In this document: piece after piece, positions 21,102 to 60,906 of the stretch
Layout of the letters: every line of letters begins with the position of its first letter
Position numbering within the stretch: position 1 is the first letter of the stretch
Assembly: GCA_021413735.1 (NCBI GenBank)
Contig: JAIOPV010000155.1
Location: 1 to 64,000 of the forward strand
Length of the DNA: 64,000 bases
Source: Planctomycetota bacterium
GTDB taxonomy: Bacteria > Planctomycetota > Planctomycetia > Gemmatales > Gemmataceae
Direction of reading: 5' to 3'
The notes under the pieces: model-generated
What the model was told of the DNA's origin: nothing
Database searches by the model: none
What the model saw: the letters and a program-made list of their open reading frames with translations, nothing else
Position numbers and translations under genes: made by a program

Positions 21102-21179
21102 AGTGGGACACAAATTGACAGTGGGTTCCGGTATCAGATCGTTTCCAGGGACGCTCTGGCCTGGAACCGTAAGAAGAAC

Positions 21180-24296: not shown

Positions 24297-24403
24297 CCAA
24301 GGGTTGAGCACCGGTTACCGTTTAGCAGTCGCCCCATCGGGGTGACATGCGGCCTCGTTGGGGCCGCTGCGACACGTCACCATAACACGCCTCTCGCAAC
24401 ACA

Positions 24404-27285: not shown

Positions 27286-27355
27286 ACCTACAGCGCGAAC
27301 TGTACGAGCATCGTGGGCCTCCGGTATAGTCAGCAAGACTTCCCGGAGGCCTGCG

Positions 27356-28297
27356 ATGTTTCCTGTTCCAACCTTGATCGGTTCGAGTCGGGCAATTGCT
27401 GGCGTCCGTCGTGCGATTTCGCAGGTCGCGAGCACCGACGCAACGGTTCTCATTCACGGCGAAACCGGGACCGGAAAGGAACTCGTCGCCAGTTCCATTC
27501 ATGCGCACTCCCGGCGAGCGGCGCGACCATTCATCGCGGCAAACTGCGGGGCATTCGTTTCGGGACTGGCCGCCAGCGAACTCTTCGGGCACGAGGCCGG
27601 AGCGTTCACCGGTGCCATCAAGCGACGAATCGGTCGGTTCGAGGCCGCACACGCTGGCACGCTATTTCTCGACGAGATCGGTGAGTTGCCGACGGGCCTT
27701 CAGCCGTTGTTGCTGCGAGTGCTTCAGGAGCAGATCATCGAGCGAGTCGGCGGTGATGCGGTGTCGGTTGATGTGCGAGTGATCGCGGCGACGAACTGCG
27801 ATCTCGCAACGGAAGTGAAAACCAGTCGCTTTCGGGCTGATCTCTTCTACCGACTGAACGTGTTTCCGATCACGATACCGCCGCTGCGGGAACGCCGCGA
27901 AGACATCGCAGTGCTGGCGGAACAGTTCGTGAGGCAACTCGCGACAACGCACGACCGACTGGTTTCACGGATTTCACCCAAGACGATGGAACTGTTGGTT
28001 GCGCACGACTGGCCGGGCAACGTTCGCGAACTCCGCAATGTAATCGAGCGTGCGGTGATCGTATCCGTCTCTCAGGAATTGGAAGTTGACCCGACATGGT
28101 TCACGCCGAGTGCGCCGACGACTGGGCGAACGTGGGCAACGCAGGAGAAGACTCGCATTCTTGAGGCGTTGCGGGCGGTGGGTGGTCGCATTTACGGTCC
28201 CGGCGGCGCGGCCCATCGTCTCGGGCTTCGACCAACCACGCTCTACGGCAAGATGCGGAAGCATGGCATCAGCAAGGAACCGTCTTCGTGGCAGTGA
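27356..28297 (+). CDS. PspF-like sigma-54 activator without receiver domain
   Basis: 313 residues beginning directly with the AAA+ domain: [19 protein letters not shown], Walker [15 protein letters not shown] loop, Walker [10 protein letters not shown], sensor II region [17 protein letters not shown]-terminal Fis HTH follows ([18 protein letters not shown]). No N-terminal sensory domain, as in PspF and HrpR, so its activity must be controlled by a partner or by expression. The ATG at 27356 has GGAGG eight bases upstream. It lies 70 bp after the third DAB gene on the same strand and may belong to the operon. Confidence 0.9.
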
Positions 28298-43841: not shown

Positions 43842-44023
43842 AACACCAGCATCTGCCCTTGGTAGGCGACACGCGGACGGGGTAGAATACCTCCACCCCA
43901 CTCACACCAAGTGGTCAGTGACGTTTCCGCGACTTGAACCTGTGCGGGCGAAACGTTAGGCTGATGCGGTTTGTTCGCAGCCATGCATCTCTGGCGACGC
44001 TCACACGGAGGAAATCAAAACCC

Positions 44024-46069
44024 ATGGCCACAGCCACGGCAATCCTCGACGGCCTTCGCGCCCAACTCGATACGACGGAGTACAGGAAGCTCCACCGCGA
44101 AGGCTCGTTCACCGACTACCTCAACATCGTTCTCGAAACGCCCGGCGTCACACGCACGGCGTTCCAGCGCCTGTACGACATGATCCTGTCGCACGGCACC
44201 GACGACGTCTACGAGAACAAGGACCGCATCAACCGGTTCAAGTTCTTCACGGACTTCGCCACCCGCCACGGCGACGGCATCTACGGGCTCGATCGCTCGC
44301 TGATGCAACTCGTCAACACGTTCAAGAGTGCTGCCCTCGGGTATGGCACCGAACGCCGCGTGATTCTGCTGCACGGCCCTGTCGGCAGCGCGAAATCGAC
44401 CATCGCCCGCTTACTGAAACGCGGGCTGGAAGAGTACAGCCGCACCGACGCCGGGATGCTGTTCAGCTTCTCGTGGAAGGGGCCGGACGGCACATGGGTG
44501 AAAGACCCAATGCACGGCGAACCGCTGCAACTGGTTCCCGAGGAACAGCGGGCCGCGTTGCTCGCTTCGCTCAACGAGAAGTGCACGAAGCCTTACGCCT
44601 ACGATGTGAAAATCAAGGGCGATCTCAGCCCGTTCAGCCGTTACGAGTTCAAGACCCGCCTCGCCAAGTACGACGGCGACTGGGTGAAGATGCTCGAACA
44701 CGAGGTGAAGATTTATCGGCTGGTCCTCAGCGAGAAGGACCGCATCGGCATCGGGACATTCCAGCCGAAGGACGAGAAGAACCAGGACAGCACCGAACTG
44801 ACCGGCGACATCAACTACCGCAAAATCGCCGAGTACGGCAGCGACAGCGACCCGCGAGCGTTCAACTTCGACGGCGAGTTGAACATCGCGAACCGCGGCA
44901 TCGTCGAGTTCATCGAAGTCCTGAAGCTCGATGTCGCGTTCTTGTACGACCTCCTCGGGGCGTCGCAGGAACACAAGATCAAGCCGAAGAAGTTCGCACA
45001 GACGGACATCGACGAGGTGATCCTCGGGCACACGAACGAGCCGGAATATCGCCGGCTCCAGAACAACGAGTTCATGGAAGCCTTGCGGGACCGCACGGTG
45101 AAGATCGACGTGCCGTATGTCACGCGGCTTCGCGACGAAGTGAAGATTTACGAGAAGGACTACAGCCCCGCGAAGGTGCGAGGCAAGCACATCGCCCCAC
45201 ACACCGTCGAGATCGCGGCGATGTGGGCCGTGCTGACCCGACTGACGCCACCGAAGCACGCGAGCCTCAGCGTGTTGCAGAAGATGAAGCTCTACAACGG
45301 CAAGACGCTGCCGGGCTTCACCGAGGACAACGTGATCGAACTGAAGCGTGACGCGGGCCACGAAGGTATGACCGGCATCAGTCCGCGTTACATTCAGGAC
45401 AAGATTAGCAATGCGCTCGTCGCGCACCCGGATGAGGACAACATCAACCCGTTCATGGTGATGCACGAACTGGAGTCCGGATTGCGGCACCATTCGCTCA
45501 TCAAGGACGAAGACCAGTATCGGCACTACAAGGAACTGCTGGCGGTGGTTCGCGAGGAGTACGAGGACATCGTGAAGAACGAAGTTCAGCGTGCGATCGC
45601 CGCCGACGAAGACGCGCTGATGCGGCTCTGCGGCAACTACATCGACAACGTGCGGTCTTACACGTTGCGGGAGAAGGTGCGCAACAAGTTCACGGGTGCG
45701 AACGAAGACCCGGATGAACGGCTGATGCGTTCGGTCGAGGAGAAGATCGACATTCCGGAGGGCCGCAAGGACGACTTCCGCCGCGAGATCATGAACTACA
45801 TCGGGGCGTTGGCCATCGACGGCAAGCGGTTCGACTACAAGACCAACGAACGGCTGCAAAAGGCCCTGGAATTGAAGCTGTTCGAGGACCAGAAGGACAC
45901 GATCAAGTTGAGTTCGCTGGTGTCGAACGTGGTGGACAAGGCGACGCAGGAGAAAATTGATGTGGTGAAGAGTCGCCTGATTCGGAACTACGGATATAAC
46001 GAGTCTAGCGCGACCGACGTTCTGAACTTCGTGGCGAGCATTTTCGCCCGCGGACAGACGAAGAAGTGA
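44024..46069 (+). CDS. prkA: PrkA-type serine protein kinase (YeaG)
   Basis: 681 residues (E. coli YeaG 644). An AAA+-type ATPase core with Walker [13 protein letters not shown] is followed by the PrkA-specific C-terminal kinase-like half ([40 protein letters not shown]). The N terminus is [20 protein letters not shown], typical for the family. PrkA/YeaG works with YeaH (DUF444) and SpoVR (YcgB) in nitrogen/carbon-starvation and stress responses; both partners are in this window. Start ATG 44024 with GGAGG upstream; the frame is open to 43934. An SRP RNA gene follows. Confidence 0.95.
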
Positions 46070-47350: not shown

Positions 47351-48499
47351 ATGGGGTATCGGATCAGCGAACACAACCACCCGAGGCACATCGCCGTGGG
47401 ACAAAAGATCGAACAAGACCTCCAGCGGTTCCGCAAGATCGTCCGCGGGAAGGTGAAGAGCAACCTTTCCAAGTACATCGGCCGTGGGGAGATGATCGGG
47501 AAGAAGGGGAAGGACTTCGTGTCCATTCCCGTGCCGTCGATCAACTTGCCGCAGTTCCGCTACGGCAACAAGAACTCCGGTGGCGTCGGCGTCGGGCCTG
47601 GACAGCCAGGTCAGCCGCTGACGCCGCAGCAAGGTGAAGACGGCGAGCCGCAGGCAGGCGATCAGCCGGGTGGCCACATCCTCGAAGTCGATCTGACCAT
47701 GGAGGAGTTGGCCGACATCCTCGGCGAAGAGCTCGCGTTGCCACGCATTGAGCCGCGTGGGCAGAAGAACGTCGTCACCGAGAAGGACAAGTACACGAGC
47801 ATCCGCAGCGTCGGCCCCGAGAGTTTGCGGCACTTCAAGCGGACGTACAAGCGCGCCATCAAGCGGCAAATCTCGGCCGGCACCTACGACCCGATTATGC
47901 CGAAGGTCATTCCGCAACGCGAAGACAAGCAGTACCGAAGCTGGAAGGAAGTTCAGAAGCCGGACGCCGTGGCGTGTGTCATTTACATGATGGACGTTTC
48001 CGGCAGCATGACCGACGAGCAGAAAGAGATCGTTCGCATCGAGGCGTTCTGGATCGACACCTGGATCAAGCGGCACTACAAGGGCGTCGACACCGTTTAC
48101 ATCATCCACGACGCGGTTGCCCAGGAAGTGGACGAACACCGCTTCTACCACACTCGCGAGAGCGGCGGCACGAAGATCAGTTCCGCCTACGAGATGTGCA
48201 ACAAGATCATCGACTCACGGTATCCGCCGTCGCAGTGGAACGTCTATGCCTTCCACTTCTCGGACGGCGACAACTGGGGCGATGACGTTCCGAAGTGCGT
48301 CGATCTGCTCACGACGCAACTGCTTCCGAAGTTGAACCTGTTCGGCTACGGGCAAGTCGAATCGCCTTACGGCAGCGGCGAGTTCTTCGAGCATGTCAAC
48401 GAGTTGGTAGATGACCACGAGAACGTGGTCGTGAGCAGAGTGCCCGACCGCGACGCCATCCTCGGCAGCATCAAGGAGTTTCTGAAGACCGGCCGATAA
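47351..48499 (+). CDS. yeaH: YeaH/YhbH family protein (DUF444)
   Basis: 382 residues. Family of unknown biochemistry that contains a von Willebrand A-like domain and works with the kinase PrkA. Landmarks: QDLQRFRKIVRGKVKSNLSK, KGKDFVSIPVPSINLPQFRY, the MIDAS-like DVSGSM at about residue 217, and the C terminus DRDAILGSIKEFLKTGR. A Gly/Pro/Gln linker replaces the usual basic segment. It lies 1.3 kb from prkA, from which it is separated by the SRP RNA and a minus-strand gene, so the usual yeaG-yeaH operon is broken here. Confidence 0.93.
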   Translation: MGYRISEHNHPRHIAVGQKIEQDLQRFRKIVRGKVKSNLSKYIGRGEMIGKKGKDFVSIPVPSINLPQFRYGNKNSGGVGVGPGQPGQPLTPQQGEDGEPQAGDQPGGHILEVDLTMEELADILGEELALPRIEPRGQKNVVTEKDKYTSIRSVGPESLRHFKRTYKRAIKRQISAGTYDPIMPKVIPQREDKQYRSWKEVQKPDAVACVIYMMDVSGSMTDEQKEIVRIEAFWIDTWIKRHYKGVDTVYIIHDAVAQEVDEHRFYHTRESGGTKISSAYEMCNKIIDSRYPPSQWNVYAFHFSDGDNWGDDVPKCVDLLTTQLLPKLNLFGYGQVESPYGSGEFFEHVNELVDDHENVVVSRVPDRDAILGSIKEFLKTGR

Positions 48500-48636: not shown

Positions 48637-49092
48637 ATGTCACTGCCACAATCGTTCGTCGCCGGTCCCACAGAAGGCCAAACGTTCACCGCGGGTCCAT
48701 TCTTCATCGTGAGCCGAGTCGAGGGGCCACAATCCAACGGCATCTTTGAGCTGTACGAGCTGTCGCTCGGTGCCGCCACCATCGACTATCACGTTCACGA
48801 CACGATGGACGAAACGCTCACGGTTCTGGAAGGCGAAATCGAGTTCAACGTGAAGGGTCACAAGTTCCTGCGGCCCAAGGGTTCCGTGGCATACGTCCCG
48901 CGTGGCGTGCATCACGGCTTCACGAACCTCGGGCCCGCCAAGGCGAAAGTACTGATTCTCTTCACGCCGTCGCGTTCGCAGCACGAATACTTCCGCGAAC
49001 TGGAGAAGTTGTTCGCCGCGCCCACGCTCGACACGGCAGCGCTCACGGCCTTGCAGAAGAAGTACGATCAGGCGCTCATCAAGGGCGAATAA
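48637..49092 (+). CDS. Cupin-domain protein
   Basis: 151 residues. Double-stranded beta-helix with cupin motif 1 DYHVHDTMDETLTVLEGEIE (metal-binding His, His, Glu) and motif 2 PRGVHHGFTN (His). A helical tail follows (LQKKYDQALIKG). Similar single-domain cupins are quercetinase-like or sensor proteins; the substrate is unknown. The next gene starts two bases after its stop, so it forms a transcript with the two small genes that follow. A weak hairpin (TCCCGAA/TTCGGGA, 48570-48591) lies upstream, after yeaH. Confidence 0.85.
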   Translation: MSLPQSFVAGPTEGQTFTAGPFFIVSRVEGPQSNGIFELYELSLGAATIDYHVHDTMDETLTVLEGEIEFNVKGHKFLRPKGSVAYVPRGVHHGFTNLGPAKAKVLILFTPSRSQHEYFRELEKLFAAPTLDTAALTALQKKYDQALIKGE

Positions 49093-49094
49093 TC

Positions 49095-49448
49095 ATGTTC
49101 AAGAACGTCGAGTACGCTGATTTCGACCGCCAGCCCGAACTGGAGGCGAAGGCTCGGGAGTTGACACCCATCCTCGCGAACGAGATTCGCACTTGGCGTG
49201 AGGATGTCAGCGTTCGGTGGAGCCCACACAAAGATTCATCAAGCGGCGTTCTCGACCTCACTTTGTCGCTCGCATTACCCAACGGCGTTGCGGAGATGCG
49301 GACAGGAACGCTGCTCGCGGAGGATTTTGAGCGAGAACGGCGACTCGCGAGCCGTTGTGGGCAGGTGTGGTCCGATCTGCTCGGTGGGTTGATCGGACAA
49401 CTCGACAACCGAGTCCAAGAATTCTTCCTCGAACCAGCGGAGGCGTGA
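49095..49448 (+). CDS. Hypothetical protein, 117 residues
   Basis: The ATG follows two bases after the cupin stop. A mixed alpha/beta small domain (DRQPELEAKARELTPILANE, LDLTLSLALPNGVAEMRTGT, WSDLLGGLIGQLDNRVQEFF); no family recognised. Coupling to the cupin and to the coiled-coil gene that begins two bases after its stop suggests one operon leading to the receptor kinases. Confidence 0.65.
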   Translation: MFKNVEYADFDRQPELEAKARELTPILANEIRTWREDVSVRWSPHKDSSSGVLDLTLSLALPNGVAEMRTGTLLAEDFERERRLASRCGQVWSDLLGGLIGQLDNRVQEFFLEPAEA

Positions 49449-49450
49449 TC

Positions 49451-49744
49451 GTGGCAAAATCGCCCACCGAACAGCTCAAGGAAATGGCTCTGGAACTCCG
49501 GGCGATTCGAGAACGTGAGGAGTATCAGGGGCGCGAGATTACTCGGTTGCGTGATGAAATTGCAGACGACCGAAAGGCTCCCATTGCGTTGGAAAAAGAA
49601 AACGCCATTCTCCGGCAACAGCTTCAGGAGCATATCAAACAAGTAGAACTGTGGGATAGCCGCCGGTGGGGTCTGATCGTGCTGTTGCTCGGGGCGGTTC
49701 TCTCCCTCGCGTCCGGATTGATCGTTACCCTCGCCAAGAAGTGA
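49451..49744 (+). CDS. Small coiled-coil membrane protein
   Basis: 97 residues from a GTG two bases after the preceding stop. Residues 5-65 are a charged coiled coil (EQLKEMALELRAIREREEYQ, EKENAILRQQLQEHIKQVEL), followed by one membrane helix near the end (RWGLIVLLLGAVLSLASGLI). Type of protein: tail-anchored, cytoplasmic coiled coil. Function unknown; the receptor kinase gene lies 142 bp downstream. Confidence 0.65.
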   Translation: MAKSPTEQLKEMALELRAIREREEYQGREITRLRDEIADDRKAPIALEKENAILRQQLQEHIKQVELWDSRRWGLIVLLLGAVLSLASGLIVTLAKK

Positions 49745-49886: not shown

Positions 49887-52610
49887 ATGACACCCGATAA
49901 GCCCGACAACGCGACGAAATTCCACTCTCCCGATCCCTCCGTCGGCAATTCGACTCAGGATAACTCAGAAAACCAGATCGATGCGTCCGCACCGCCGGAC
50001 CTGTCTTTTCTTGGGCCACCACTCGAAGATGGTGACCTCGGACAACTCGGCACCTACCGAATTCGCCGCATCCTCGGCGTCGGCGGAATGGGCATCGTCT
50101 TCGAGGCCATCGACTCACAACTTCGCCGCCTGGTCGCGCTCAAGGTCATGCGCCCCGAGATCGCGGCGTCACTCGCCGCTCGAACCCGTTTCCTCAAGGA
50201 AGCGCGAGCAGCGGCCGCACTCAGTTCCGATCACATCGTCACCGTTTTCCAGGTCGGTCAGGATAACGACGTTCCGTTCATGGCCATGCAACTCCTGCGT
50301 GGAGAGGCACTGGATACGCGGCTGAATCGCGAGCCGAGGCTCGCGGTGCAGGATGCGCTGACAATCGCGATTCAGGCTGCGGCCGGATTGGCAGCCGCTC
50401 ACGACGCCGGACTCATTCACCGCGATATCAAGCCCGCGAATCTGTGGCTGGAAATCAAGGACGAAGGTGCGAAGAAATCAGCCGATTCGGGAAGGTTGCT
50501 CACCACCGGTTCCGGGCCAGATACTTCATTCCGCGTCAAAATTCTTGATCTCGGGTTGGTGCGGGGCGGCGGCGGTCCGCGTTTAACAACTGCGGGGGTC
50601 GTCGTCGGAACGCCGCACTTCATGGCACCCGAGCAGGCAGGCGGATCGGAGATCGACCACCGAGCCGACCTGTTCAGCCTCGGTTGCGTGATCTTCACGA
50701 TGCTGACCGGCGAATTGGCGTTCGGTGGAAACAACACCATGGCCGTGCTGATGGCGCTGGCAAACCACACGCCGCCACTGATTCACGAACGGAACGAAGC
50801 TGTTCCGCATGAGTTATCGCAGTTCGTTGCTCGCATGATGTCCAAAACCGCTGCGGGGCGTCCGCCATCCGCGCTCCAGGTCATCGAGCATCTCACGGGG
50901 ATTCTCGACGCAGAGAATGAGAGAAAAAGTAACACCCCGCAGCCACGGAAGCCAGGTTCGAGCAAAGTCAGTTGGGCGGAAGCAGTGCGTCGGCAACCCA
51001 TCCCAGAATTGAAGAGTCGCTCGGGGATTGCATCGCCCGCAACCACGCAGTCGATCCGCACTGGCACGGGTACGGGGGCAACCCCGACGCCAGCCGACAG
51101 CGGACCGTTGGCCGTGGCGACGCCTTCGCCTTCCGATCTGCTCAGGGTTCCGCCGCAGGCGTCTGCGCCCATTGTTATCGCGCCCAGCCCTCCGACGGCT
51201 CCACGCATTCCGACTCCCGTTCCTGTTCCGATTCCTTGTGCCGATGTGCCGCCGCCCGTGGTGCCGGGTTCTGGAAGTACGATTCCCGCAGCAACGCCGC
51301 CTCGCGAACATGCGCAGCAGTCGATCAGCGTCGGGATTGGGCTGGTCGCAATCGCAATTGCGATCGTCTCGCTGGGCCTGATTCTCGGAGTTGGCGGGCG
51401 ACTCAGTCCGACACCCGCCCCGTCCGAAACTGCCGAGGCCATTAAGATTGGAGTGCTGCATTCCAAGACGGGGTCGCTGGCACTCAGCGAGTCTCCGGTT
51501 ATCGATGCGACCCTGCTGGCGGTGGATGAAGTGAATCAGGCTGGCGGTGTGCTTGGCCGCCAGCTTCAACCGATCGTGGTCGATGGGAAGTCTGACCCCG
51601 ACACGTTCGCGATGGCGGCCGACAAACTGCTGGGCGACGAAAAGGTTGCGGTCGTGTTCGGATGCTGGACGAGTGCGTCCCGGAAGGCAGTCAAGCCGAC
51701 GTTCGAGCGGCGCGGCGATCTCCTGTTCTATCCGGTCCATTACGAAGGGCTTGAACAATCGCCACGAATCGTTTACACCGGCGCGGCCCCGAATCAGCAA
51801 ATCATTCCCGCGATCGACTATCTGACCGGAAAGCTCGGAAAGAAGCGGTTGTTCGTGGTTGGTTCCGATTATGTGTATCCTCGAACCGCTTCGGAAATCA
51901 TCTCGGATTACGTGAAGAAACTGCCCGACGTGAAGGTAGTCGGTGCCGAATTTGTGTCGATTGGATCGAAGGACGTTGTCAGCATGGTCGAGATTCTCAA
52001 GAAATCGAATCCCGATGCGATCGTGAACTTGCTCAACGGCACGACCAACTTCGCCTTCTTCAAGGAACTCAAAGCCGCGGGAATCACGGCTGAAACAATG
52101 GCGATCATCTCGACGAGCATCACCGAGAACGAACTCCGCAGTCTCGACCCGGAAACCACGACCGGCAGTTACCTCGTGGCGAGTTATTTCCAGTCCCTTG
52201 ATCGGCCCGAGAGCCGAGAGTTCGTCAGGAAGTTCCAGGCGAAATTCGGCGCAGATCGTGTCGTCTCCAACGCGATGGCCGCTGCGTACACGGGCGTCCA
52301 TATGTGGGCGAAGGCCGCGAACGCGGCTGGCAAACTCGATTCGGATGCAGTTCTGAGTAAGTTGGGCGGGGCAACGTTTGCAGCTCCGGGTGGCACGGTC
52401 AAGATTGACCCTGAGAATCGGCACACCTGGCAACCCTGGAGAATCGGCAAGGTCCGGGCGGATGGACAGGTTGATATTGTCGCTTCCTCACCGGACAACA
52501 TTGCCCCGACGCCTTTCCCAAATACTCGCACACGAGGGGAATGGGAACGGTTTTTGGAAGGGCTGTACATCGAGTGGGGGAGTCGATGGCAGGCACCAAG
52601 TACACCATGA
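49887..52610 (+). CDS. Receptor-like Ser/Thr kinase with UrtA-type ligand-binding domain, 1
   Basis: 907 residues. A cytoplasmic Hanks-type kinase comprises residues 50-345: glycine loop LGVGGMGIVFEA, VALK, catalytic loop HRD at 178-180 in HRDIKPANLWLE, and GTPHFMAPEQ. The metal motif reads DLG in place of DFG. A Pro/Thr-rich linker and one membrane helix follow (about 480-505, SVGIGLVAIAIAIVSLGLIL). The outside domain from about 520 is homologous to UrtA/AmiC-type periplasmic binding proteins: IKIGVLHSKTGSLALSES, FGCWTSASRKAVKP, LLFYPVHYEGLEQSPRI and GAAPNQQIIP. Ligand probably urea or short amides. The SD GGAGAG precedes the ATG. Confidence 0.9.
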   Translation: MTPDKPDNATKFHSPDPSVGNSTQDNSENQIDASAPPDLSFLGPPLEDGDLGQLGTYRIRRILGVGGMGIVFEAIDSQLRRLVALKVMRPEIAASLAARTRFLKEARAAAALSSDHIVTVFQVGQDNDVPFMAMQLLRGEALDTRLNREPRLAVQDALTIAIQAAAGLAAAHDAGLIHRDIKPANLWLEIKDEGAKKSADSGRLLTTGSGPDTSFRVKILDLGLVRGGGGPRLTTAGVVVGTPHFMAPEQAGGSEIDHRADLFSLGCVIFTMLTGELAFGGNNTMAVLMALANHTPPLIHERNEAVPHELSQFVARMMSKTAAGRPPSALQVIEHLTGILDAENERKSNTPQPRKPGSSKVSWAEAVRRQPIPELKSRSGIASPATTQSIRTGTGTGATPTPADSGPLAVATPSPSDLLRVPPQASAPIVIAPSPPTAPRIPTPVPVPIPCADVPPPVVPGSGSTIPAATPPREHAQQSISVGIGLVAIAIAIVSLGLILGVGGRLSPTPAPSETAEAIKIGVLHSKTGSLALSESPVIDATLLAVDEVNQAGGVLGRQLQPIVVDGKSDPDTFAMAADKLLGDEKVAVVFGCWTSASRKAVKPTFERRGDLLFYPVHYEGLEQSPRIVYTGAAPNQQIIPAIDYLTGKLGKKRLFVVGSDYVYPRTASEIISDYVKKLPDVKVVGAEFVSIGSKDVVSMVEILKKSNPDAIVNLLNGTTNFAFFKELKAAGITAETMAIISTSITENELRSLDPETTTGSYLVASYFQSLDRPESREFVRKFQAKFGADRVVSNAMAAAYTGVHMWAKAANAAGKLDSDAVLSKLGGATFAAPGGTVKIDPENRHTWQPWRIGKVRADGQVDIVASSPDNIAPTPFPNTRTRGEWERFLEGLYIEWGSRWQAPSTP

Positions 52611-52618
52611 CCGCCTGT

Positions 52619-52668
52619 CGCTGCTTGCGGCGTTGCACTACCTTCGCAGCGCAACGCCGCAAGCGGCG
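52619..52668. repeat. Intergenic inverted repeat between kinase genes 1 and 2
   Basis: Arms 52619-52636 (CGCTGCTTGCGGCGTTGC) and 52651-52668 pair with one mismatch around a 14-base loop. It shares CCGCTTGCGGCGT with the 52-bp palindrome at 35124 and may attenuate read-through between the kinase genes. Confidence 0.65.
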
Positions 52669-52690
52669 AACTCAGCGCTCCGAGTGATCC

Positions 52691-55129
52691 ATGAGCGACG
52701 GTAATACCCCATCATCGCCGAAAACCACGCGCGAATTTCTCATCGAGGGCGACCTGCTGAAAGGGAGCTATTCGTTCCTGTCGCCCGCGTTGGCACCGAA
52801 TGAACTCGGGCGGCTCGGAGATTACCGTGTCCTGCGACTCCTCGGCACTGGCGGGATGGGAATCGTTTTTGAGGCCGAGGAACTCGCGCTCGCTCGCCGA
52901 GTCGCGCTGAAGGTACTCCTCCCTGAACTCACGAAAGATCCCGAGAACCGCGAACGTTTCTTGCGAGAAGCCCGTGCGGCGGCGGCTGTCGCATCTGATC
53001 ACGTCGTCACTATCTACAACGTCGCAAGTGGCGACCTACCGTACCTCGTGATGCAATTCCTTGAAGGCGAAACGGTTCAGTCGCGAATTGACAGGCGGCC
53101 TGCACTGACACTTCGGGAAGCTCTCGAAATCACCCGGCAGACCGCACTGGGATTGGCTGCCGCGCACGAGAAGGGGTTGGTTCACCGCGACATCAAACCA
53201 GCGAATCTCTGGCTCGAACCCGTGCAAAACGTGGAACGCGGAACGCAGAGTGAAGCGAGCGAAGAAACGGCCAAACAAGATCTCCCCTTCCGCGTAAAGA
53301 TTCTCGACTTCGGATTGGCACGGCTCGTCAGCGGCGACAACAACCTAACTTCGACCGGCCTCGTGATGGGCACACCGAACTACATGTCTCCCGAACAGGC
53401 GTCCGGGTTGGTTGTGGATGGTCGATCCGATCTGTTCAGCCTCGGGTGCGTGTTTTATGCGATGCTCACTGGGAATTTGCCGTTCCCAGGTCACACAGCC
53501 ATGGGCGTCATGATGGCGCTAGCGACCAAGACACCAGACCGGGTGGATAAGTCGAATCCGGCAATTCCCAAAGCAGTCGCGGATCTCGTGGCGAAACTTC
53601 TGAGAAAGAAGCCTGACCGCCGCCCAGCATCGGCTCGCGAGGTTGCGAAGAACTTGCAAGAACTGCTGGCAAGTCTGGACGAGAACATTCCGCTTCGCAA
53701 ATGTTCACCCAATGAAACCGCGGGAAACTATTTCGTCGGAGAAACCGTCGTTCGGGAGAATCCCAACGCCTCGCTGCCAACTCCGGTGTCGTCCAAGGTT
53801 GTGCTGGTCGATGAACCATCAACCACCACAACCCGCCGGAAACGCCAACGATTGGCAGGTGTCGTGTGGGCGTTGCTCGGGATGGTTGTTCTCGCGGTTG
53901 TGGGTTTCGGTGGTCGGCAACTTTTCTGGCTGCCCGCACCCCTCCCACCCGAACCCATCCTGATCGGCGTGTTGCATTCGCAGACCGGCACAATGGCTGT
54001 GAGCGAAGGGCCGCTCATCGACGCAACGGTTCTCGCGATCGAGGAAATCAACGCGGCTGGCGGTGTTCTTGGGCGACCGCTGCGAGCGGTCATCGCCGAT
54101 GGCAAGTCTGATCCCGTTGAGTTCCAGAAGGCAGCGGAACGCCTGATCGCCGATGATCGCGTGTCGGTCATCTTCGGCTGTATGACGTCGCCTTCGCGAA
54201 AGGCAGCGAAACTGGTCGTCGAACGCGACAATGGCCTGCTGTTCTTCCCGGTTTCGTTTGAGGGGCTCGAACAGTCGCCGCGAATCATCTACACGGGAGC
54301 GCCACCGAATCAGAAATCGCTCCCCTCCATCGAGTATGTGGTGAAGACGCTCAACCGGAAACGGCTGTTCATCCTGGGATCGAATCTCGTGTCGCCACGG
54401 TCCGCGACCGAAGTGATTCGCGACCATATGAAGTTGGTGACCCCTGAATGCGAGATTGTCGCGACGCACTTCGTGCCGCTCGGTTCCACCGACATGACCG
54501 AGGCACTTGACGCGATCGTTGCCGCGAAGCCGGACATGATTCTGAACATCCTCAACGGCAGCAGTAACTTCCCGTTCTACCGCGAACTCCGGAAACGCGG
54601 CATCGAATCGTCGAAAGTTCCGACGCTCTCGATCTCGCTGTCGGAGCACGACCTCGTTGGCCTGGACCCGAAACTCGTGGCAGGGGACTACCTCTCGGCG
54701 AATTACTTCCAGTCGGTCGATCGCGAGGAGAACCGCCTCTTTCTGGTAAAGGTGAAGGAAAAATTCGGCGATCAGCGAGTCGTGACGGACAACATGGTGG
54801 CTGCGTATTCTGGCGTGCATCTCTGGGCGAAGGCCGCGACGAAGGCCGGAACGCCAGACCCTGCCGATGTCGTCAAAGCGATCGGCGGAATCGAGTTTGA
54901 AGGGCCGGGCGGCTTGATCCGGATTGACCCCGAGAACCATTACGCCTGGCGACCGTGGCGAGTCGGGCAGATTCAGCCTGATGGAACGGTGAAGATCGTT
55001 GCGGCTGCCCCCGGAAACGTCCGTGCGGATCCATTCCCAACGACCCGCACTCGCCGGGATTGGGATCGACTTCTGAACGAGCTGTACGTCGAATGGGGAG
55101 GGAACTGGCAAGCGCCTGGCAACCCATGA
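52691..55129 (+). CDS. Receptor-like Ser/Thr kinase with UrtA-type ligand-binding domain, 2
   Basis: 812 residues; a tandem paralog of the gene at 49887, with a shorter linker. Kinase: LGTGGMGIVFEA, VALK, HRD at 165-167, DFG (KILDFGLARLV) and GTPNYMSPEQ, all intact. Membrane helix at about 386-413 (GVVWALLGMVVLAVVGFGGR). Binding domain from about 422: ILIGVLHSQTGTMAVSEG, EEINAAGGVLGRPLRAVIAD, FGCMTSPSRKAAKL and LLFFPVSFEGLEQSPRI. Its N terminus (KTTREFLIEGDLLKGSYSFL) is shared with kinase 3. Differences at the ligand-pocket region (CWTSASRK to CMTSPSRK) suggest another ligand. Confidence 0.9.
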   Translation: MSDGNTPSSPKTTREFLIEGDLLKGSYSFLSPALAPNELGRLGDYRVLRLLGTGGMGIVFEAEELALARRVALKVLLPELTKDPENRERFLREARAAAAVASDHVVTIYNVASGDLPYLVMQFLEGETVQSRIDRRPALTLREALEITRQTALGLAAAHEKGLVHRDIKPANLWLEPVQNVERGTQSEASEETAKQDLPFRVKILDFGLARLVSGDNNLTSTGLVMGTPNYMSPEQASGLVVDGRSDLFSLGCVFYAMLTGNLPFPGHTAMGVMMALATKTPDRVDKSNPAIPKAVADLVAKLLRKKPDRRPASAREVAKNLQELLASLDENIPLRKCSPNETAGNYFVGETVVRENPNASLPTPVSSKVVLVDEPSTTTTRRKRQRLAGVVWALLGMVVLAVVGFGGRQLFWLPAPLPPEPILIGVLHSQTGTMAVSEGPLIDATVLAIEEINAAGGVLGRPLRAVIADGKSDPVEFQKAAERLIADDRVSVIFGCMTSPSRKAAKLVVERDNGLLFFPVSFEGLEQSPRIIYTGAPPNQKSLPSIEYVVKTLNRKRLFILGSNLVSPRSATEVIRDHMKLVTPECEIVATHFVPLGSTDMTEALDAIVAAKPDMILNILNGSSNFPFYRELRKRGIESSKVPTLSISLSEHDLVGLDPKLVAGDYLSANYFQSVDREENRLFLVKVKEKFGDQRVVTDNMVAAYSGVHLWAKAATKAGTPDPADVVKAIGGIEFEGPGGLIRIDPENHYAWRPWRVGQIQPDGTVKIVAAAPGNVRADPFPTTRTRRDWDRLLNELYVEWGGNWQAPGNP

Positions 55130-55171
55130 CAAGGCGGAACGCGGGAGTCCGTTTCGCGAATTGAGTGATTC

Positions 55172-57646
55172 ATGAGCGAAGGCAACTCATCTTCAGCGCC
55201 GAAAACCACGCGAGAATTCCTCATCGACAGCGCCACGCTGAAAGGGAGCTATTCGTTCCTGGCGCCCGCGTTGGCACCGGATGAAATCGGGCGGCTCGGC
55301 GATTACCGGATCCTGCGTCCTCTCGGCGCTGGCGGCATGGGGATCGTCTTCGAGGCCGAAGAAATCGCCCTTCGGCGACAGGTCGCGTTGAAAGTCCTGT
55401 TCCCTGAACTCGCCAAAGACAAAGAGAACCGGGAACGATTCCTCCGGGAAGCACGGGCTGCCGCTGCCATCATCTCCGATCATGTCGTCACCATCTACTA
55501 TGTCGCGAGCGGCGATCTGCCATTCCTCGCGATGCAGTTCCTCGAAGGCGAATCGCTTCAATCGCGGATCGACAGAGACCCTCCACTGACGCTTCGCGAT
55601 GCCTTGGAAATCGCCAGGCAAACAGCGCTCGGGCTTGCTGCCGCCCAGGAGAAGGATCTCATCCACCGCGATATCAAGCCCGCGAATCTGTGGCTGGAAC
55701 CCCTGGCGGAAGGCAGAGGGCAGAAGGGGGACTCAAGTTCGGATTCCGCCCTCCGCCTTCTGCCTTCCGCCTTCGGAAGAGTGAAGCTCCTCGACTTCGG
55801 GTTGGCGCGCCTCACCACCGGTGAAACCAGCCTGACGGAAACCGGCTTGGTCGTGGGCACACCGATGTATATGTCGCCCGAGCAGGCAGCCGGGTTGGAA
55901 CTTGACGGGCGATCGGATTTGTTCAGCCTCGGGTGCGTGCTGTACAAGATGCTCGTCGGAAGCCTGCCATTCCCTGGCAAATCGGCGATGGCGATCATGA
56001 TGGCGCTGGCAACGAAAACCCCGCAGCGTGTCGATGAAGTGAACCCAGCCATTCCTTCGGATGTCGCGGACTACGTTGCTCTGCTGCTGAAGAAGAACCC
56101 AGCTCGTCGGCCGGCATCTGCTCGTGAGGTCGCGTCGAAACTCGGCGAACTCATTTTGCGATCACCAGAGGATCTGACGCTTTCGCAGTTTTCGAGCGCC
56201 AACGCGACCAACGAATTTTTCCTCGGTGACACGGCAGTTCAGGGTCAAAAGAACACGCCATCACCAACGCCACATATCGGCTCGCGAGTGGATACCCCAG
56301 CGCGTCGAAAATCGCGCCGTTGGGTCGTGGGTGGTGGGTTGCTTCTGCTTGCGGTTGTGGTCGCGGCAAGCATGGCTCTCTCGGACCTGTTCACGCCTGC
56401 GGTGCCGTCGCCAACGCCACAGCAGTTGCCTCAGCCGGCGATTGTCGTGGGTGTGCTGCATTCACAAACCGGCACGATGGCCATGAGTGAACAACCGGTG
56501 CTGAACGCGACGCTCATGGCGATCGAGGAAATCAACGCGGCCAGCGGCGTTCTTGGTCGAAAAATCCGTGTCGTGGTCGTGGATGGGAAGTCGGACCCCG
56601 ATGTCTTCGCGAGTGAAGCCGAGCGACTACTTGACGAGGACAAGGTCAGCGTGATTTTCGGCTGTTGGACGAGCGCCAGCCGAAAGGCTATACGCGATGT
56701 GTTCCTTCGCCGCAAGGAAGGGCTTCTCTTCTACCCGGTGCAGTACGAAGGCATCGAGGAGTCGCCGCGGATTGTGTACCTCGGGCCGACGCCGAATCAG
56801 CAACTCCTTCCGGCAATCGACTTCCTCACGCGGCCAGTTGAAGCCGGTGGCCTCGGCAAGAAACGCCTGTACTTCGTGGGTTCCGATTACGTCTTCCCTC
56901 GCGTGACTTATGAGAGCCTGAAGGATCAGGTAAAGCTCCGCGCGAAGGATGGCGTCGAGATCGTGGGAGCGTCGTTCCTGCCGCTTGGCTCGACACAAGC
57001 GATGACGGTCGTGACGGACATCAAACGCCAGAATCCGGACGCGATCATCAACGCGATCAACGGCGGCACGAACGTGCAGTTCTTCCAGGAGCTTCGCGAA
57101 CGGAAACCTCGTGTTACGCCTGCCGAGATTCCGACGCTTTCACTGAGCATCACGGAGAACGAGGTTCGCGGACTCAACCCGGCAGCGCTGGCTGGCGATT
57201 ACATTGCCGCGAGCTATTTCCAGACCATTGACCGTGCGGAGAGTCGCGAGTTCGTTCGCAAACTCCGAACGCGGTTCGAAACAACTCCTGTGGCGACCGA
57301 TCCGTCAGCGGCAGCGTACACCGGCGTGCATCTGTGGGCAAAGGCAGTCGAGAAGGCCGGCACGACCGACGCAATGGCGGTTCGAGAGGCCGTTCGCGGC
57401 TTGGAGTTCGAGGGCGTGCGAACGCGAGTGAAGATCGACCCCGAGAATCTGCATGCGTGGCTGCCTGCACGCATCGGGAAGATTCGCGCCGACGGCTCGA
57501 TCGATGTGATTCCGGGGGCGGGATCGGAAACGCCGCTGCCTCCTACTCCATACCTGCCGACACGCACGAGGCAGGAGTGGGAGACGTTTCTGCACGGTTT
57601 GCAGTTTCAGTGGAACGGGAAGTGGGTCGCACCGGACAAGAAGTGA
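55172..57646 (+). CDS. Receptor-like Ser/Thr kinase with UrtA-type ligand-binding domain, 3
   Basis: 824 residues, third tandem paralog, starting 42 bp after kinase 2. Kinase motifs intact: LGAGGMGIVFEA, VALK, HRD at 165-167, KLLDFGLARLT, GTPMYMSPEQ. Membrane helix at about 383-408 (WVVGGGLLLLAVVVAASMAL). UrtA-like domain from about 426: VGVLHSQTGTMAMSEQPV, EEINAASGVLGRKIRVVVVD, FGCWTSASRKAIRD, LLFYPVQYEGIEESPRI and GPTPNQQLLP. Between the catalytic loop and DFG about 23 residues (AEGRGQKGDSSSDSALRLLP) are encoded by a small inverted repeat. This copy is closest to the UrtA motifs. Confidence 0.9.
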   Translation: MSEGNSSSAPKTTREFLIDSATLKGSYSFLAPALAPDEIGRLGDYRILRPLGAGGMGIVFEAEEIALRRQVALKVLFPELAKDKENRERFLREARAAAAIISDHVVTIYYVASGDLPFLAMQFLEGESLQSRIDRDPPLTLRDALEIARQTALGLAAAQEKDLIHRDIKPANLWLEPLAEGRGQKGDSSSDSALRLLPSAFGRVKLLDFGLARLTTGETSLTETGLVVGTPMYMSPEQAAGLELDGRSDLFSLGCVLYKMLVGSLPFPGKSAMAIMMALATKTPQRVDEVNPAIPSDVADYVALLLKKNPARRPASAREVASKLGELILRSPEDLTLSQFSSANATNEFFLGDTAVQGQKNTPSPTPHIGSRVDTPARRKSRRWVVGGGLLLLAVVVAASMALSDLFTPAVPSPTPQQLPQPAIVVGVLHSQTGTMAMSEQPVLNATLMAIEEINAASGVLGRKIRVVVVDGKSDPDVFASEAERLLDEDKVSVIFGCWTSASRKAIRDVFLRRKEGLLFYPVQYEGIEESPRIVYLGPTPNQQLLPAIDFLTRPVEAGGLGKKRLYFVGSDYVFPRVTYESLKDQVKLRAKDGVEIVGASFLPLGSTQAMTVVTDIKRQNPDAIINAINGGTNVQFFQELRERKPRVTPAEIPTLSLSITENEVRGLNPAALAGDYIAASYFQTIDRAESREFVRKLRTRFETTPVATDPSAAAYTGVHLWAKAVEKAGTTDAMAVREAVRGLEFEGVRTRVKIDPENLHAWLPARIGKIRADGSIDVIPGAGSETPLPPTPYLPTRTRQEWETFLHGLQFQWNGKWVAPDKK
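55706..55775. repeat. Inverted repeat inserted in kinase gene 3
   Basis: GCGGAAGGCAGAGGGCAGAA and, in reverse complement, CTTCTGCCTTCCGCC form an imperfect hairpin of about 20 bp within the coding sequence. It is read in frame as a low-complexity loop of the kinase domain. The purine/pyrimidine style of the arms is that of the other mobile-looking elements. Confidence 0.55.
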
Positions 57647-57701: not shown

Positions 57702-60467
57702 ATGAACCTGGGCTTCTACAACACGAACCTGCCGCCGCACTTACGGGTGCTGAAAGACGAGATCGAGGGTTACGCCCGCGAGTACGGGCTGGACTTCTAC
57801 GAGACGATTTTCGAGGTGGTCGACGCCGACGACCTGAACGAGATCGCGGCGTATGGCGGCTTCCCGACGCGCTACCCGCACTGGTCGTTCGGGATGCAGT
57901 ACGAGGACTTGAAGAAGGGCTACGAGTACGGGCTGTCGAAGATTTACGAGATGGTGATTAACAACGACCCGTGCTACGCCTACCTGATGCGTTGCAATCA
58001 CACGGTCGACCAGAAGCTCGTGATGGCGCACGTTTACGGCCACTGCGATTTTTTCAAGAACAACGCCTACTTCGGGCACACGACCCGCAAGATGATGGAC
58101 GAGATCGCGAACCACGCGGCTCGCATCCGTCATTACGTCGAGCGGTTCGGCGAAGACGAAGTCGAAGGGTTCCTCGACAAGTGCATGTCCATCGACGACC
58201 TGATCGACATTCACTCGGTCGCGATCAAGCGGCGAGACGATCACTCGAAGTACGACTTCACGCCGCCACCAGCCGAGGGCGACGCCGAGGAAAGCCAGAC
58301 GCGACGCTTCAAGGCGAAGGCGTACATGGCGGATTACATCAACCCGCGAGCGACGCTGAAGGCCGAGGACGACGAGCGAAAGCATCTCAAGGAGCAGCGC
58401 GTTTCGCACTTCCCGGAGCATCCCGAAAAGGACGTGCTGCTGTTCCTGATCGAGCATGCCCCGCTGAAGAACTGGCAACGCGACATCCTCAGCATAATCC
58501 GAGACGAAGCTTATTACTTTTATCCTCAAGGTCAAACGAAGATCATCAACGAAGGTTGGGCCTGCCTGATTTCAGGTTCGCTCGTCGCCACGGATCGCGG
58601 CTTCCTGCGAATCGACGACCTCGTGCGGAATCGGCAAGCCGTGCGAGTGGGCGATGGCGTCGGCACGCAACTGGTGTACGACTGGGCACGCTTCGAGGAG
58701 CGCGAAACCGTTCGTGTTCGCACGCGGCGTGGATTACAGGTCGAAGGCTCGTTGACCCATCAACTCATGTTGCCGGATGGAAGCTGGAAGCGGCTTTCGG
58801 AGGTGCAAGTCGGCGACCGGTTGAAGGTCGCCCGTGGCACGAATGTTTGGGCGACCGAAGCCGTGAAACTCGACTGGCAGCCCGAGAGTCGGCTCACGCT
58901 CGAAGCAGCCGCTGCCGAGGCTGGCGTCTCGATCTGGACGATGTTGCGATATCGCGAGGGGAAGCGAGTTCGCAAGCAGGCCGCAATTGAGGCCGTCAAC
59001 GCTCGGTACGAACAGCAACTCAGCACCGTTTCGTATATGCAGAACAAGCGGGCGAAGGTTCGCACTCTCTCGGTTGTGAACGAACAGTTCGCGGCGTTCC
59101 TCGGTTATTTGATCGGCGATGGACACATCAGCGATGTGAAGCGAGTCATCGGACTGACCACCGGCGACGAATCGCAAGCCGATCACTTTGCGGCGCTGGT
59201 CACGGAGTTGTTCGGCATCACGCCCCGCAAGAAGTGGGACGTGTCTAAGTGGCGGGTTCTCTTCTCCTCGCAGACGGTGAAAGACTTCCTCGTTTCGCTC
59301 GGGTTGAAGACCGGATTCGCCGCTCGCGTGAAAACAGTTCCCGATGTGATTCTGCGGTCGCCGAAGCCGGTCGTCGCCGCCTTCCTGCGTGCCCTCTATG
59401 ACTGCGATGGCTACGCTGGTCCGGCGGGGGTGATTCTCTCGACAACAAGCCCGAAGATGGCCGAGGTCGTGCAAATCTTGCTGCTGAACTTCGGCGTTCT
59501 CTCGACGCTCCGACCGCACAAGGACGACTGCTGGCACGTTCACACGCAAGGCCGCTCAGCGAAGGTATTCCGCGAGCAAATCGGTTTCGGACTCGAACGC
59601 AAGCAAGCGAGGCTCGCCGAATACACCGAGAACCGCCAATGGTTCAAGGAAGAGCGCGAAGATGACGTGATTGTGTCGGTGGTACGCGGCAGGGCCGAGG
59701 TGTTCGACGTTTCGGTTGAGGAAACGCACCGCTACGTCGCACAGGGGTTGGTGAATCACAACTCCTTCTGGCATTCCACGATGATGACGCAGAAGATTCT
59801 CCAGCCGTCAGAAGTCATCGACTACGCCGACCACCACTCGGGCACGATGGCGACGAGTTCACGCAGACTCAACCCGTACAAGGTCGGCATCGAGTTGCTT
59901 CGCGACATCGAACGACGCTGGAACATGGGGCAGTTCGGACCCGAATGGGAAAACTGCGACGACATGGAGAAGAAGCGGAAATGGAACACCGAGACCGGCC
60001 TCGGTCGCAAAAAGATCTTCGAGGTGCGGCGGATTCACAACGACATCACGTTCATCGACACGTTTTTAACCCCCGAGTTCTGCAAGGAACACGGTCTGTT
60101 CTCGTTCAATTACAACGAGCCGGGGGCAAACTATGTCATCGAGAGCCGAGAATTCCAGAAGGTGAAGCAACGATTGCTCTTCAGTCTCACGAATTTCGGC
60201 AAGCCGTGGATCTACGTGGTCGACGGGAACTACCGCAACCGCGGAGAACTGATGTTGCGGCACGAGCATAATGGGGTAGATTTGAAAGGGGACGAGGCGC
60301 GCGACACTTTGTCGAACGTACAGTACATCTGGGCGCGCCCCGTTCATCTTGAAACGATTTTCGATGGTCAGCCGACCGTCATGAGTTTCGACGGCTCGGA
60401 ACACACACAACAGGTGATAGGAGGGACCAATGACGCTTCCCGAAACACTCCTTCCAAAGCTAAGTGA
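57702..60467 (+). CDS. spoVR: SpoVR/YcgB family protein interrupted by an intein
   Basis: 921 codons; without the intein 521 residues, near E. coli YcgB (510). The extein halves are complete SpoVR: ITDYADEYGLDFYETIFEVV-like start (YAREYGLDFYETIFEVVDAD), YPHWSFGMQYEDLKKGYEYG, MAHVYGHCDFFKNNAYFGHT, the conserved TKIINEGWA joined to SFWHSTMMTQKI, then PYKVGIELLRDIERRWNMGQ and the C-terminal domain YLWARPVHLET-like (YIWARPVHLETIFDGQPTVM). SpoVR acts with PrkA and YeaH; biochemistry unknown. Intein: residues 288-687. ATG 57702 with GGAGGGAACC upstream. The 3' end overlaps the next gene by 38 bp. Confidence 0.95.
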   Translation: MNLGFYNTNLPPHLRVLKDEIEGYAREYGLDFYETIFEVVDADDLNEIAAYGGFPTRYPHWSFGMQYEDLKKGYEYGLSKIYEMVINNDPCYAYLMRCNHTVDQKLVMAHVYGHCDFFKNNAYFGHTTRKMMDEIANHAARIRHYVERFGEDEVEGFLDKCMSIDDLIDIHSVAIKRRDDHSKYDFTPPPAEGDAEESQTRRFKAKAYMADYINPRATLKAEDDERKHLKEQRVSHFPEHPEKDVLLFLIEHAPLKNWQRDILSIIRDEAYYFYPQGQTKIINEGWACLISGSLVATDRGFLRIDDLVRNRQAVRVGDGVGTQLVYDWARFEERETVRVRTRRGLQVEGSLTHQLMLPDGSWKRLSEVQVGDRLKVARGTNVWATEAVKLDWQPESRLTLEAAAAEAGVSIWTMLRYREGKRVRKQAAIEAVNARYEQQLSTVSYMQNKRAKVRTLSVVNEQFAAFLGYLIGDGHISDVKRVIGLTTGDESQADHFAALVTELFGITPRKKWDVSKWRVLFSSQTVKDFLVSLGLKTGFAARVKTVPDVILRSPKPVVAAFLRALYDCDGYAGPAGVILSTTSPKMAEVVQILLLNFGVLSTLRPHKDDCWHVHTQGRSAKVFREQIGFGLERKQARLAEYTENRQWFKEEREDDVIVSVVRGRAEVFDVSVEETHRYVAQGLVNHNSFWHSTMMTQKILQPSEVIDYADHHSGTMATSSRRLNPYKVGIELLRDIERRWNMGQFGPEWENCDDMEKKRKWNTETGLGRKKIFEVRRIHNDITFIDTFLTPEFCKEHGLFSFNYNEPGANYVIESREFQKVKQRLLFSLTNFGKPWIYVVDGNYRNRGELMLRHEHNGVDLKGDEARDTLSNVQYIWARPVHLETIFDGQPTVMSFDGSEHTQQVIGGTNDASRNTPSKAK
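58563..59762 (+). mobile_element. Intein with LAGLIDADG endonuclease in SpoVR
   Basis: 400 residues, exactly 1200 bp, inserted at NEGWA/SFWHS. It starts with Cys (CLISGSLVATDRGFLRIDDL, block A). It has block B VEGSLTHQLML with S-x-x-H in the usual T-x-x-H place. A DOD endonuclease follows, with LGYLIGDGHIS and FLRALYDCDGYA as the two LAGLIDADG helices, and block F is VFDVSVEETHRYVAQGLV. It ends in His-Asn before the +1 Ser (NHN|S). All residues needed for class 1 protein splicing are present. The endonuclease acidic residues (Asp in IGDG and in DCDG) are kept, so the element may still be mobile. Confidence 0.93.
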
Positions 60468-60906
60468 ATGGCGACCATCGGGCGTTGGTCGGCACAGTTG
60501 GGCCGAGACGTTTCCGGCTGCGGGTTGGACCGTCCAGATTGCCGCCGACAAAGCCGACTCGATGTCGTGTCTGGTGTGGGAATTGACCCTCACCCGCACG
60601 GCCGACGTTCCGGCAGGTACCACACTCACAACGTGGGCTTCTGCGATTGCGAACCGCGTGAGTGGCCTCATGGAACCGCTGAAGGTTCACGAGGTTGACC
60701 AACCCCGCGGCGAGGCGGTGCTGCGAAGCGTGGCCCCCGCGAAGAAGGGTGAAGCCCTCGCTTACTACGAAGTGCGGTTGCCAAGCCTGACGACCGCTGT
60801 GGTTCGTCGGTACACGGCGAGCAAGACCGTCAGCGGCCGCGATCAGGTTGCGTTCGCGCTGACTCACGAGGCGATTGCGAAACTGGTCGGCGACATCGCG
60901 GGTTAA
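60430..60906 (+). CDS. Hypothetical protein, 158 residues
   Basis: It begins inside the end of spoVR with a strong AGGAGG before the ATG, so the two are coupled. A soluble alpha/beta domain (HSWAETFPAAGWTVQIAADK, MSCLVWELTLTRTADVPAGT, WASAIANRVSGLMEPLKVHE, EALAYYEVRLPSLTTAVVRR). No family recognised. Its 3' end (from codon 128) and the following terminator are duplicated at 61959-62110. A partner role with SpoVR is possible but not shown. Confidence 0.75.
   Translation: MTLPETLLPKLSEWRPSGVGRHSWAETFPAAGWTVQIAADKADSMSCLVWELTLTRTADVPAGTTLTTWASAIANRVSGLMEPLKVHEVDQPRGEAVLRSVAPAKKGEALAYYEVRLPSLTTAVVRRYTASKTVSGRDQVAFALTHEAIAKLVGDIAG

Follow-up and report, generated by a model that had tools for sequence, protein, structure and literature searches.

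Within the 64,000-nucleotide window analysed here (positions 1 to 64,000 of contig JAIOPV010000155.1, assembly GCA_021413735.1, from a planctomycete of the family Gemmataceae), three tandem genes encode proteins, termed K1, K2 and K3, that each combine a Ser/Thr kinase with a domain resembling UrtA, the binding protein of urea transporters. A preliminary description of this DNA had placed three such genes at 49887-57646, and open reading frames (ORFs) were indeed found at exactly these coordinates, all on the forward strand: K1 occupies 49887..52610 (907 aa), K2 52691..55129 (812 aa) and K3 55172..57646 (824 aa), with gaps of 80 base pairs (bp) between K1 and K2 and of 42 bp between K2 and K3. 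The order along each chain is the same: an N-terminal Hanks-type kinase, a linker, a single hydrophobic helix and a near-complete, C-terminal Peripla_BP_5 domain (PF13433). In K1, the kinase domain spans residues 57-335 (50055-50891), the transmembrane helix residues 482-500 (51330-51386) and the ectodomain residues 519-881 (51441-52529); the corresponding limits are 45-318 (52823-53644), 388-406 (53852-53908) and 424-786 (53960-55048) in K2, and 45-318 (55304-56125), 385-403 (56324-56380) and 424-798 (56441-57565) in K3, the domains being delimited by Pfam and the helices by a hydropathy scan. The Pfam matches to Pkinase have E-values of 5e-38, 4.9e-44 and 8.1e-39 for K1, K2 and K3, respectively, and those to PF13433, which are nearly full-length, of 6.6e-140, 1e-123 and 2.7e-124. 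The receptor-kinase plan first recognized in the preliminary description is real.

All of the catalytic motifs checked are present in K1-K3, namely, the glycine loop, VALK, HRDIKPAN, DFG (DLG in K1) and APE/SPE, such that each has the catalytic lysine, HRD and DFG-type signatures of a Hanks-type kinase. The HRD motif is likewise found in all 54 other fusions that we collected from related genomes (see below): 41 fit the first search pattern and 13 are variants, such as HRDIKPDN. Between kinase and ectodomain there is a single hydropathy peak in each of K1, K2 and K3, whereas across the fusions as a whole, the linker helix went undetected at the scan threshold in 6 of 57. Topology was assessed by this simple scan, together with a count of flanking charges, rather than by a dedicated predictor; it places an excess of positive charge on the kinase side of the helix in K2 (+3/0) and K3 (+5/-1). 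A cytoplasmic ectodomain, which would have undermined the receptor interpretation, is thus not indicated by the scan, albeit with the charge bias contributed by K2 and K3 and not by K1. In all three proteins, the kinase is probably cytoplasmic and the ectodomain periplasmic, and we consider both the fold family and the topology to be well supported.

The identity of the ectodomains is established principally by sequence. The solved proteins nearest to those of K1 and K3, the two that were searched in this way, are all urea-binding proteins: 8tg1, the periplasmic urea-binding protein of Caldicellulosiruptor saccharolyticus according to its title, and the cyanobacterial UrtA structures 7s6e, 7s6f and 8hic. 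Next, and clearly farther away, is the amide sensor AmiC. Together with the PF13433 matches, this bears out the proposal that a UrtA-type binding domain has been captured as a sensor. The NCBIfam model for UrtA, TIGR03407, also covers the three ectodomains nearly full-length, with scores of 442.1, 376.3 and 395.7 bits for K1, K2 and K3, respectively; none reaches the curated cut-off of 492.75 bits, and they are therefore UrtA-like rather than UrtA by that rule. Structure prediction against UrtA and AmiC, as suggested in the preliminary description, added little. Using alignments of only the three window ectodomains, the models were poor (mean predicted local distance difference test scores of 45.9 for K3 and 55.7 for K2), and although a Foldseek search with the K2 model, the only route by which K2 was compared with known structures, ranked UrtA and AmiC first, the template modelling scores were ~0.41 and the root mean square deviations 12-15 Å. 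We therefore give this result little weight, and the fold claim is carried by the sequence evidence.

PMC10392092 describes nine residues near urea in the UrtA of P. marinus: W120, S122, Y141, Q144, E146, Y190, F192, N246 and S274. Mutation of S122, Q144, Y190 or N246 abolishes or strongly reduces urea binding, and the W120A variant no longer binds urea; of the nine, F192 alone lacks high conservation in UrtA (PMC10392092). We transferred this numbering to K3 through its alignment with 8hic, and from there onto 98 ectodomains with MAFFT (two fragments were excluded). The pocket of K3 is identical to that of UrtA at all nine positions (WSYQEYFNS), that of K1 at seven (WSYHEYYNS; Q144H and F192Y), and that of K2 at four (MSFSELSNS; W120M, Y141F, Q144S, Y190L and F192S). 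The earlier claim that the three paralogs differ in their ligand pockets is therefore upheld, whereas the loss of the UrtA ligand residues, which would have told against it, applies largely to K2, in small part to K1 and not at all to K3. Graded accordingly, the proposal of a urea-like ligand is good in the case of K3, plausible in that of K1 and doubtful in that of K2. The altered pockets may accept another ligand or none, the sensing of several nitrogen compounds being an extrapolation of the preliminary description.

The same division recurs in relatives. Two genomes carry two copies each at the equivalent position (G016 and G022): their first copies read WSYHEYFNS and WSYQEYFNS, and their second copies MSYSELSNS and MSYSEISNT, respectively. 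M120, S144, L/I190 and S192 are thus common to K2 and both its orthologs, and therefore the altered pocket has itself been kept. The eight single-copy relatives that lie beside spoVR have WSYQEYFNS in seven cases, the remaining one deviating at F192 alone, and several other fusion clades also hold the intact nine-residue pocket. Moreover, six of the eight genomes of the order with at least two full-length fusions combine an intact with an altered pocket (G000, G022, G006, G058, G068 and G084), outside the spoVR cluster in G006 and G084. A different alteration characterizes seven fusions that form a clade of their own in other parts of the order (L065, L067, L068 and L071-L074) and have S144 (L in one), S190, S/T246 and H274; members of this clade coexist with a fusion that has an intact urea pocket in G058 and G084.

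The strongest clue to function is one that the preliminary description missed: the receptor genes are inserted in a prkA-yhbH-spoVR cluster. Upstream on the same strand are prkA/yeaG (43934..46069; PrkA AAA and PrkA C-terminal domains, start codon uncertain), yhbH/yeaH (47351..48499; DUF444), a gene for a cupin-domain protein (48637..49092) and a small gene (49355..49744) whose product, 129 aa as listed but with an uncertain start, has a hydrophobic C-terminus and no Pfam family; prkA and yhbH are separated by a reverse-strand ORF that likewise has no Pfam match. Downstream, spoVR (57702..60467, forward strand; SpoVR/YcgB family) begins 55 bp past K3 and is interrupted by an intein; its end is overlapped by a forward-strand gene (60430..60906) for a 158-aa protein with no Pfam family, which is conserved downstream of spoVR in related loci. 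Of the 10 other loci with a fusion beside spoVR, 6 (L053 and L059-L063) have an ORF related to that at 49355-49744, as does one locus without a fusion (L089).

The SpoVR intein is an in-frame LAGLIDADG element at residues ~289-690 (~58566-59771; both ends are approximate), and related inteins are present in the SpoVR proteins of G047, G017, G026, G014, G045 and G044. In many genomes, the match to SpoVR breaks near model position 270-277, in others near 104-109, and in G044 and G027 at both, which suggests that these inteins use two insertion sites.

Placement beside spoVR is conserved. Among 102 genomes of the order, 72 gave PF13433 matches (E <= 0.001). We read all 61 matches of at least 190 bits (3 from the window and 58 fetched) and, in addition, a weaker one (G018), whose fetched stretch yielded no fusion. 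The 61 comprise 52 kinase fusions from 43 genomes, 5 stand-alone UrtA proteins and 4 that are cut by contig ends. Fifteen of the 52 fusions lie beside spoVR, in one orientation, in at least 11 of the 43 fusion genomes and in three genus groups; the 11 is a minimum, as some other fusions are on short contigs. Besides the source genome, ten have a single or double fusion directly before spoVR (G016, G022, G047, G052, G017, G010, G009, G012, G011 and G019), and yhbH is on the other side of the fusion in nine of these, the contig of G047 ending first. SpoVR itself is found in 79 genomes of the order, and 20 loci without an adjacent fusion were fetched from the remaining 68. In 3 of the 20, yhbH was not found; in all 17 readable loci, yhbH and spoVR are on the same strand and no more than 1500 bp apart with no fusion between them, although 3 of the 17 have an ORF of at least 270 aa in the gap. 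A conserved gene pair has therefore either gained the fusion or lost it.

The layout is real but less singular than had been implied, given the 52 fusions in the order and further examples beyond it. In a sample of 392 genomes of the phylum, we examined, among the matches listed, the eight that exceeded 370 bits and had frames of 790-1080 aa, together with G372 and G478; weak matches with long frames (e.g. G353, G137, G230 and G250) are outside the resulting counts. Kinase fusions were present in at least five genomes (G474, G295, G367, G238 and G253), from one family of the same class, and fusions to hybrid histidine kinases in at least three (G367, G392 and G125), from the same family. In the latter (L141:7142-10348, L143:9686-12523 and L145:7545-10379), the UrtA-type domain is N-terminal to HisKA, HATPase and receiver domains, with an additional Hpt domain in L141; the pocket is complete in two and has F192Y in one. 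A hydropathy scan shows no membrane helix in these proteins, which are possibly cytoplasmic urea-sensor-like histidine kinases. A further frame of 1569 aa (L146:7902-12608) has a C-terminal UrtA-type domain and no other kind of Pfam match. Outside the planctomycetes, five actinobacterial and myxobacterial genomes were searched with PF13458 and seven of the long-frame proteins were scanned: six, all from three Streptomyces genomes (L241, L244, L245, L246, L248 and L252), are Pkinase-Peripla_BP_6 fusions, and therefore the general architecture exists elsewhere with another binding-protein family. The Streptomyces genes include two tandem pairs (L246/L241 and L252/L248), each ~2 kb apart. The seventh protein, from Sorangium (L243:1372-3522), is a single chain in which a type-1 binding domain is joined to a permease domain of the branched-chain amino acid type. 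Public annotation has a name for bifunctional kinase-binding-protein chains of the Streptomyces kind. A scan of contigs with two kinase patterns recovered 80 kinase loci, none with a detectable ectodomain. Among the papers listed by literature searches, no title or opening of an abstract was seen to describe a UrtA-kinase fusion, and the main text of PMC11032199, on planctomycete kinases, does not contain 'urea' or 'substrate-binding' in the portion available, although its supplementary domain tables may do so. The plan of a Ser/Thr kinase joined to a periplasmic binding protein is thus already known; the variant here is a UrtA-type sensor inside a starvation cluster.

The trees point to a complex history. 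In the kinase tree, K3 falls into a single clade with K2 and the two orthologs of K2 (support 100/99), K1 groups with its two orthologs and with two fusions located elsewhere, and a grouping of K3 with the single-copy proteins is rejected (p 0.0022). The best ectodomain tree does place K3 with the single-copy group, but with weak support (60/78), and a placement beside the K2 type could not be rejected (p 0.37); we consequently dropped the idea that K3 is a domain-swap chimera. Accelerated change of the K2 ectodomain after duplication was also set aside, as five near outgroups fit it (p 0.0002-0.019) and two far ones do not (p 0.69 and 0.29). In a quick tree, the spoVR-adjacent ectodomains form one supported set of 18 rows that includes two fusions from elsewhere and one contig-cut relative. 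Comparisons between K1-type and between K2-type orthologs give ratios of nonsynonymous to synonymous divergence (dN/dS) below 0.19, which, with synonymous sites saturated (pS 0.57-0.74), shows only that the proteins are not decaying. A kinase tree of the order and class, comprising 55 fusions and 34 other kinases (2 of 57 fusion rows were excluded for an incomplete kinase), was also built quickly; it scatters the fusion kinases among ordinary ones, and its well-supported branches force at least four changes between fusion and non-fusion. A single founding fusion event fails, since an all-fusion kinase clade is rejected (p-AU 0.0011), and therefore kinase and UrtA domain have been joined, or re-paired, more than once.

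The preliminary description noted the absence of a transporter nearby, and this holds genome-wide as far as we searched. In the source assembly (9.8 Mb in 293 contigs, 95.7% complete), the only PF13433 matches are K1, K2 and K3, with no stand-alone UrtA; no UrtB reaches the cut-off (the top match has 139 bits; the search did not extend to UrtC, UrtD, UrtE or passive urea channels), and the urease alpha subunit has no match. Urea carboxylase is absent at its cut-off from all 102 genomes of the order. A match to the formamidase/acetamidase family in G000 (67.5 bits, or 98.2 with in-frame neighbours) was dropped as evidence for the ligand, since the family matches 61 of the 102.

Taken together, we propose that K1-K3 are receptors for urea or similar small amides that act on, or with, the PrkA-YhbH-SpoVR module, with K2 re-tuned. 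We put the chance of this being correct at about even, and we infer both the ligand and the target. The three proteins would be single-pass membrane receptor Ser/Thr kinases, with the UrtA-type Venus-flytrap domain in the periplasm and the kinase in the cytoplasm; closure of the flytrap on a small ligand would alter kinase activity, by analogy with UrtA and with receptors based on solute-binding proteins generally. For K3, as for its single-copy relatives at the spoVR locus, the most likely ligand is urea or a small amide very close to it, and K1 is probably a modified urea/amide receptor. K2 has lost most of the urea-pocket residues, yet three genomes retain it; most likely, therefore, it recognizes a different ligand or partners K1 or K3. 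Since the genome shows no route for urea uptake or breakdown, as far as searched, the ligand would be a signal and not a food. The kinase output most likely feeds into the PrkA-YhbH-SpoVR starvation/stress module or shares regulation with it; the direction of regulation and the proteins phosphorylated by K1-K3 are, likewise, matters that we infer. In E. coli, NtrC binds yeaGH; mutants without yeaG and mutants without yeaH resemble each other, and both differ from the wild type in their recovery after sustained nitrogen starvation (PMC4664914). A receptor for a nitrogen compound would make sense in a yeaGH-type cluster, if one accepts guilt by association. A bolder version, in which extracellular urea or a near relative serves purely as a signal that sets PrkA-YhbH-SpoVR output, and the duplicated receptors of the locus have evolved a second ligand, is one that we advance tentatively and consider rather improbable.

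A number of observations weigh against the proposal. One is that the helix flanks of K1 show zero charge bias (0/0). Others concern the output: for 37 of the order's 52 fusions, no position beside spoVR was found, and therefore a link to PrkA-YhbH-SpoVR cannot be general; only 7 of the 11 adjacent loci, as fetched, have prkA close to yhbH (in addition to the window, G016, G022, G017, G010, G009 and G012); and a scan of the window for sigma-54 patterns found none near the cluster, such that a sigma-54-like promoter was rejected, the lone match (8809-8825) being within chance. On the strength of the first and last of these points on the output, it could be argued that adjacency to spoVR is that of a bystander, the receptors serving another pathway and merely being carried along in the cluster. 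The retention of the placement in 11 genomes from three genus groups, in one orientation, and the occurrence of the duplications within the interval argue otherwise, and we regard this alternative as unlikely, although it deserves to be taken seriously.

The remaining difficulties concern the ligand. Across the order, urease is not associated with the fusions (4 of 43 fusion genomes versus 6 of 59 others, p 1.0; the ten urease-positive genomes are those with at least 160 bits, and G017, G019, G028 and G034, with no more than 25.5 bits, were counted as without), and nor is UrtB over its cut-off (1 of 43 versus 3 of 59, p 0.64). Gene content therefore gives a urea ligand no support, and a link between the receptors and urea catabolism was discarded. 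The intact pocket is present in only 22 of the 52 fusions of the order, or 25 if F192Y is allowed. Furthermore, measured against the columns that show conservation of at least 95% in 32 rows of stand-alone UrtA type, retention of the pocket is not significant for K3 (8/8 pocket versus 60/81 other conserved columns, Fisher p 0.19), nor does K2 stand out (4/8 versus 61/81, p 0.20); the argument therefore rests on structure-defined positions and a repeated pattern, not on one p-value. The lack of association with urease would suit receptor kinases for another nitrogen compound, or for an unrelated small molecule, in which the UrtA pocket would be a scaffold kept by inheritance and the natural ligand something other than urea, as would the failure to find genes for urea catabolism and UrtB in the genome, the many altered pockets in the order, including the seven-fusion clade, and the position of AmiC as the next-nearest solved protein. 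We think this improbable, given that K3 has the nine-residue pocket intact, as do 7 of the 8 single-copy relatives beside spoVR and several other clades, and that all four UrtA homologues sampled in PMC10392092 are reported to bind urea strongly. That the ectodomain is instead a ligand-free module for dimerization or protein docking, with kinases that answer to the state of the envelope or to partner proteins, would account for the loss from K2 and several other fusions of the key residues W120, Q144 and Y190, at which UrtA mutants lose or weaken binding (PMC10392092), but is distinctly unlikely in view of the full pocket of K3 and most single-copy relatives, the tracking of pocket changes with particular paralogs and clades, and the conservation of the altered K2 pocket between orthologs.

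The proposed receptors, for urea or similar amides, both resemble and depart from known systems. They share with UrtA of the UrtABCDE transporter (8HIC, 7S6E, 7S6F and 8TG1) near-full-length ectodomain homology and, in K3, the nine pocket residues, but differ in that the domain is fused behind a kinase and a helix, scores below the TIGR03407 cut-off, and has no UrtB partner over the cut-off in the source genome (UrtC, UrtD and UrtE were not searched). Like AmiC, which serves the amidase operon, they would use a homologous domain for sensing and not for transport; in contrast, AmiC works with AmiR (both roles as given in PDB titles), is not joined to a kinase, and, by alignment, departs from the UrtA pocket at several of its nine positions. 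For the actinobacterial GlnH-GlnX-PknG system, PMC6069109 proposes that a Ser/Thr kinase is controlled, via a membrane protein, by a solute-binding lipoprotein that reports outside nutrients to it; there, three proteins and aspartate/glutamate are involved, whereas here there is one chain and a UrtA-type domain. The Streptomyces fusions have the same N-terminal kinase and C-terminal type-1 binding domain, and even two tandem pairs among the six, but their ectodomain is PF13458, with no PF13433 match at E <= 1e-6. Finally, the neighbours of K1-K3 belong to the families of the YeaG-YeaH and PrkA-YhbH-SpoVR stress and sporulation genes, in which, by contrast, no receptor kinase lies between yhbH and spoVR in the 17 readable non-fusion loci, and none is mentioned for YeaG-YeaH in the accessible part of PMC4664914.

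To our knowledge, few bacterial Ser/Thr kinases have a known stimulus. For K1-K3, nine structure-defined residues point to a candidate ligand, one cluster supplies three natural pocket variants on which to test it, and the same cluster suggests an input for PrkA-YhbH-SpoVR, which is conserved yet poorly understood, and linked to nitrogen starvation in E. coli. If the proposal is correct, this module would gain a known outside input, in bacteria that have no recognized route to use urea. The recurring pairs of intact and altered receptors provide a test case for the divergence of receptor specificity.

Elsewhere in the window, a gene for a DabA-type inorganic carbon transporter is followed by one for an NADH-dehydrogenase/antiporter-type membrane protein (21069-25867), and a sigma-54 activator-type gene (AAA and Fis-type helix-turn-helix domains) lies at 27158-28297.

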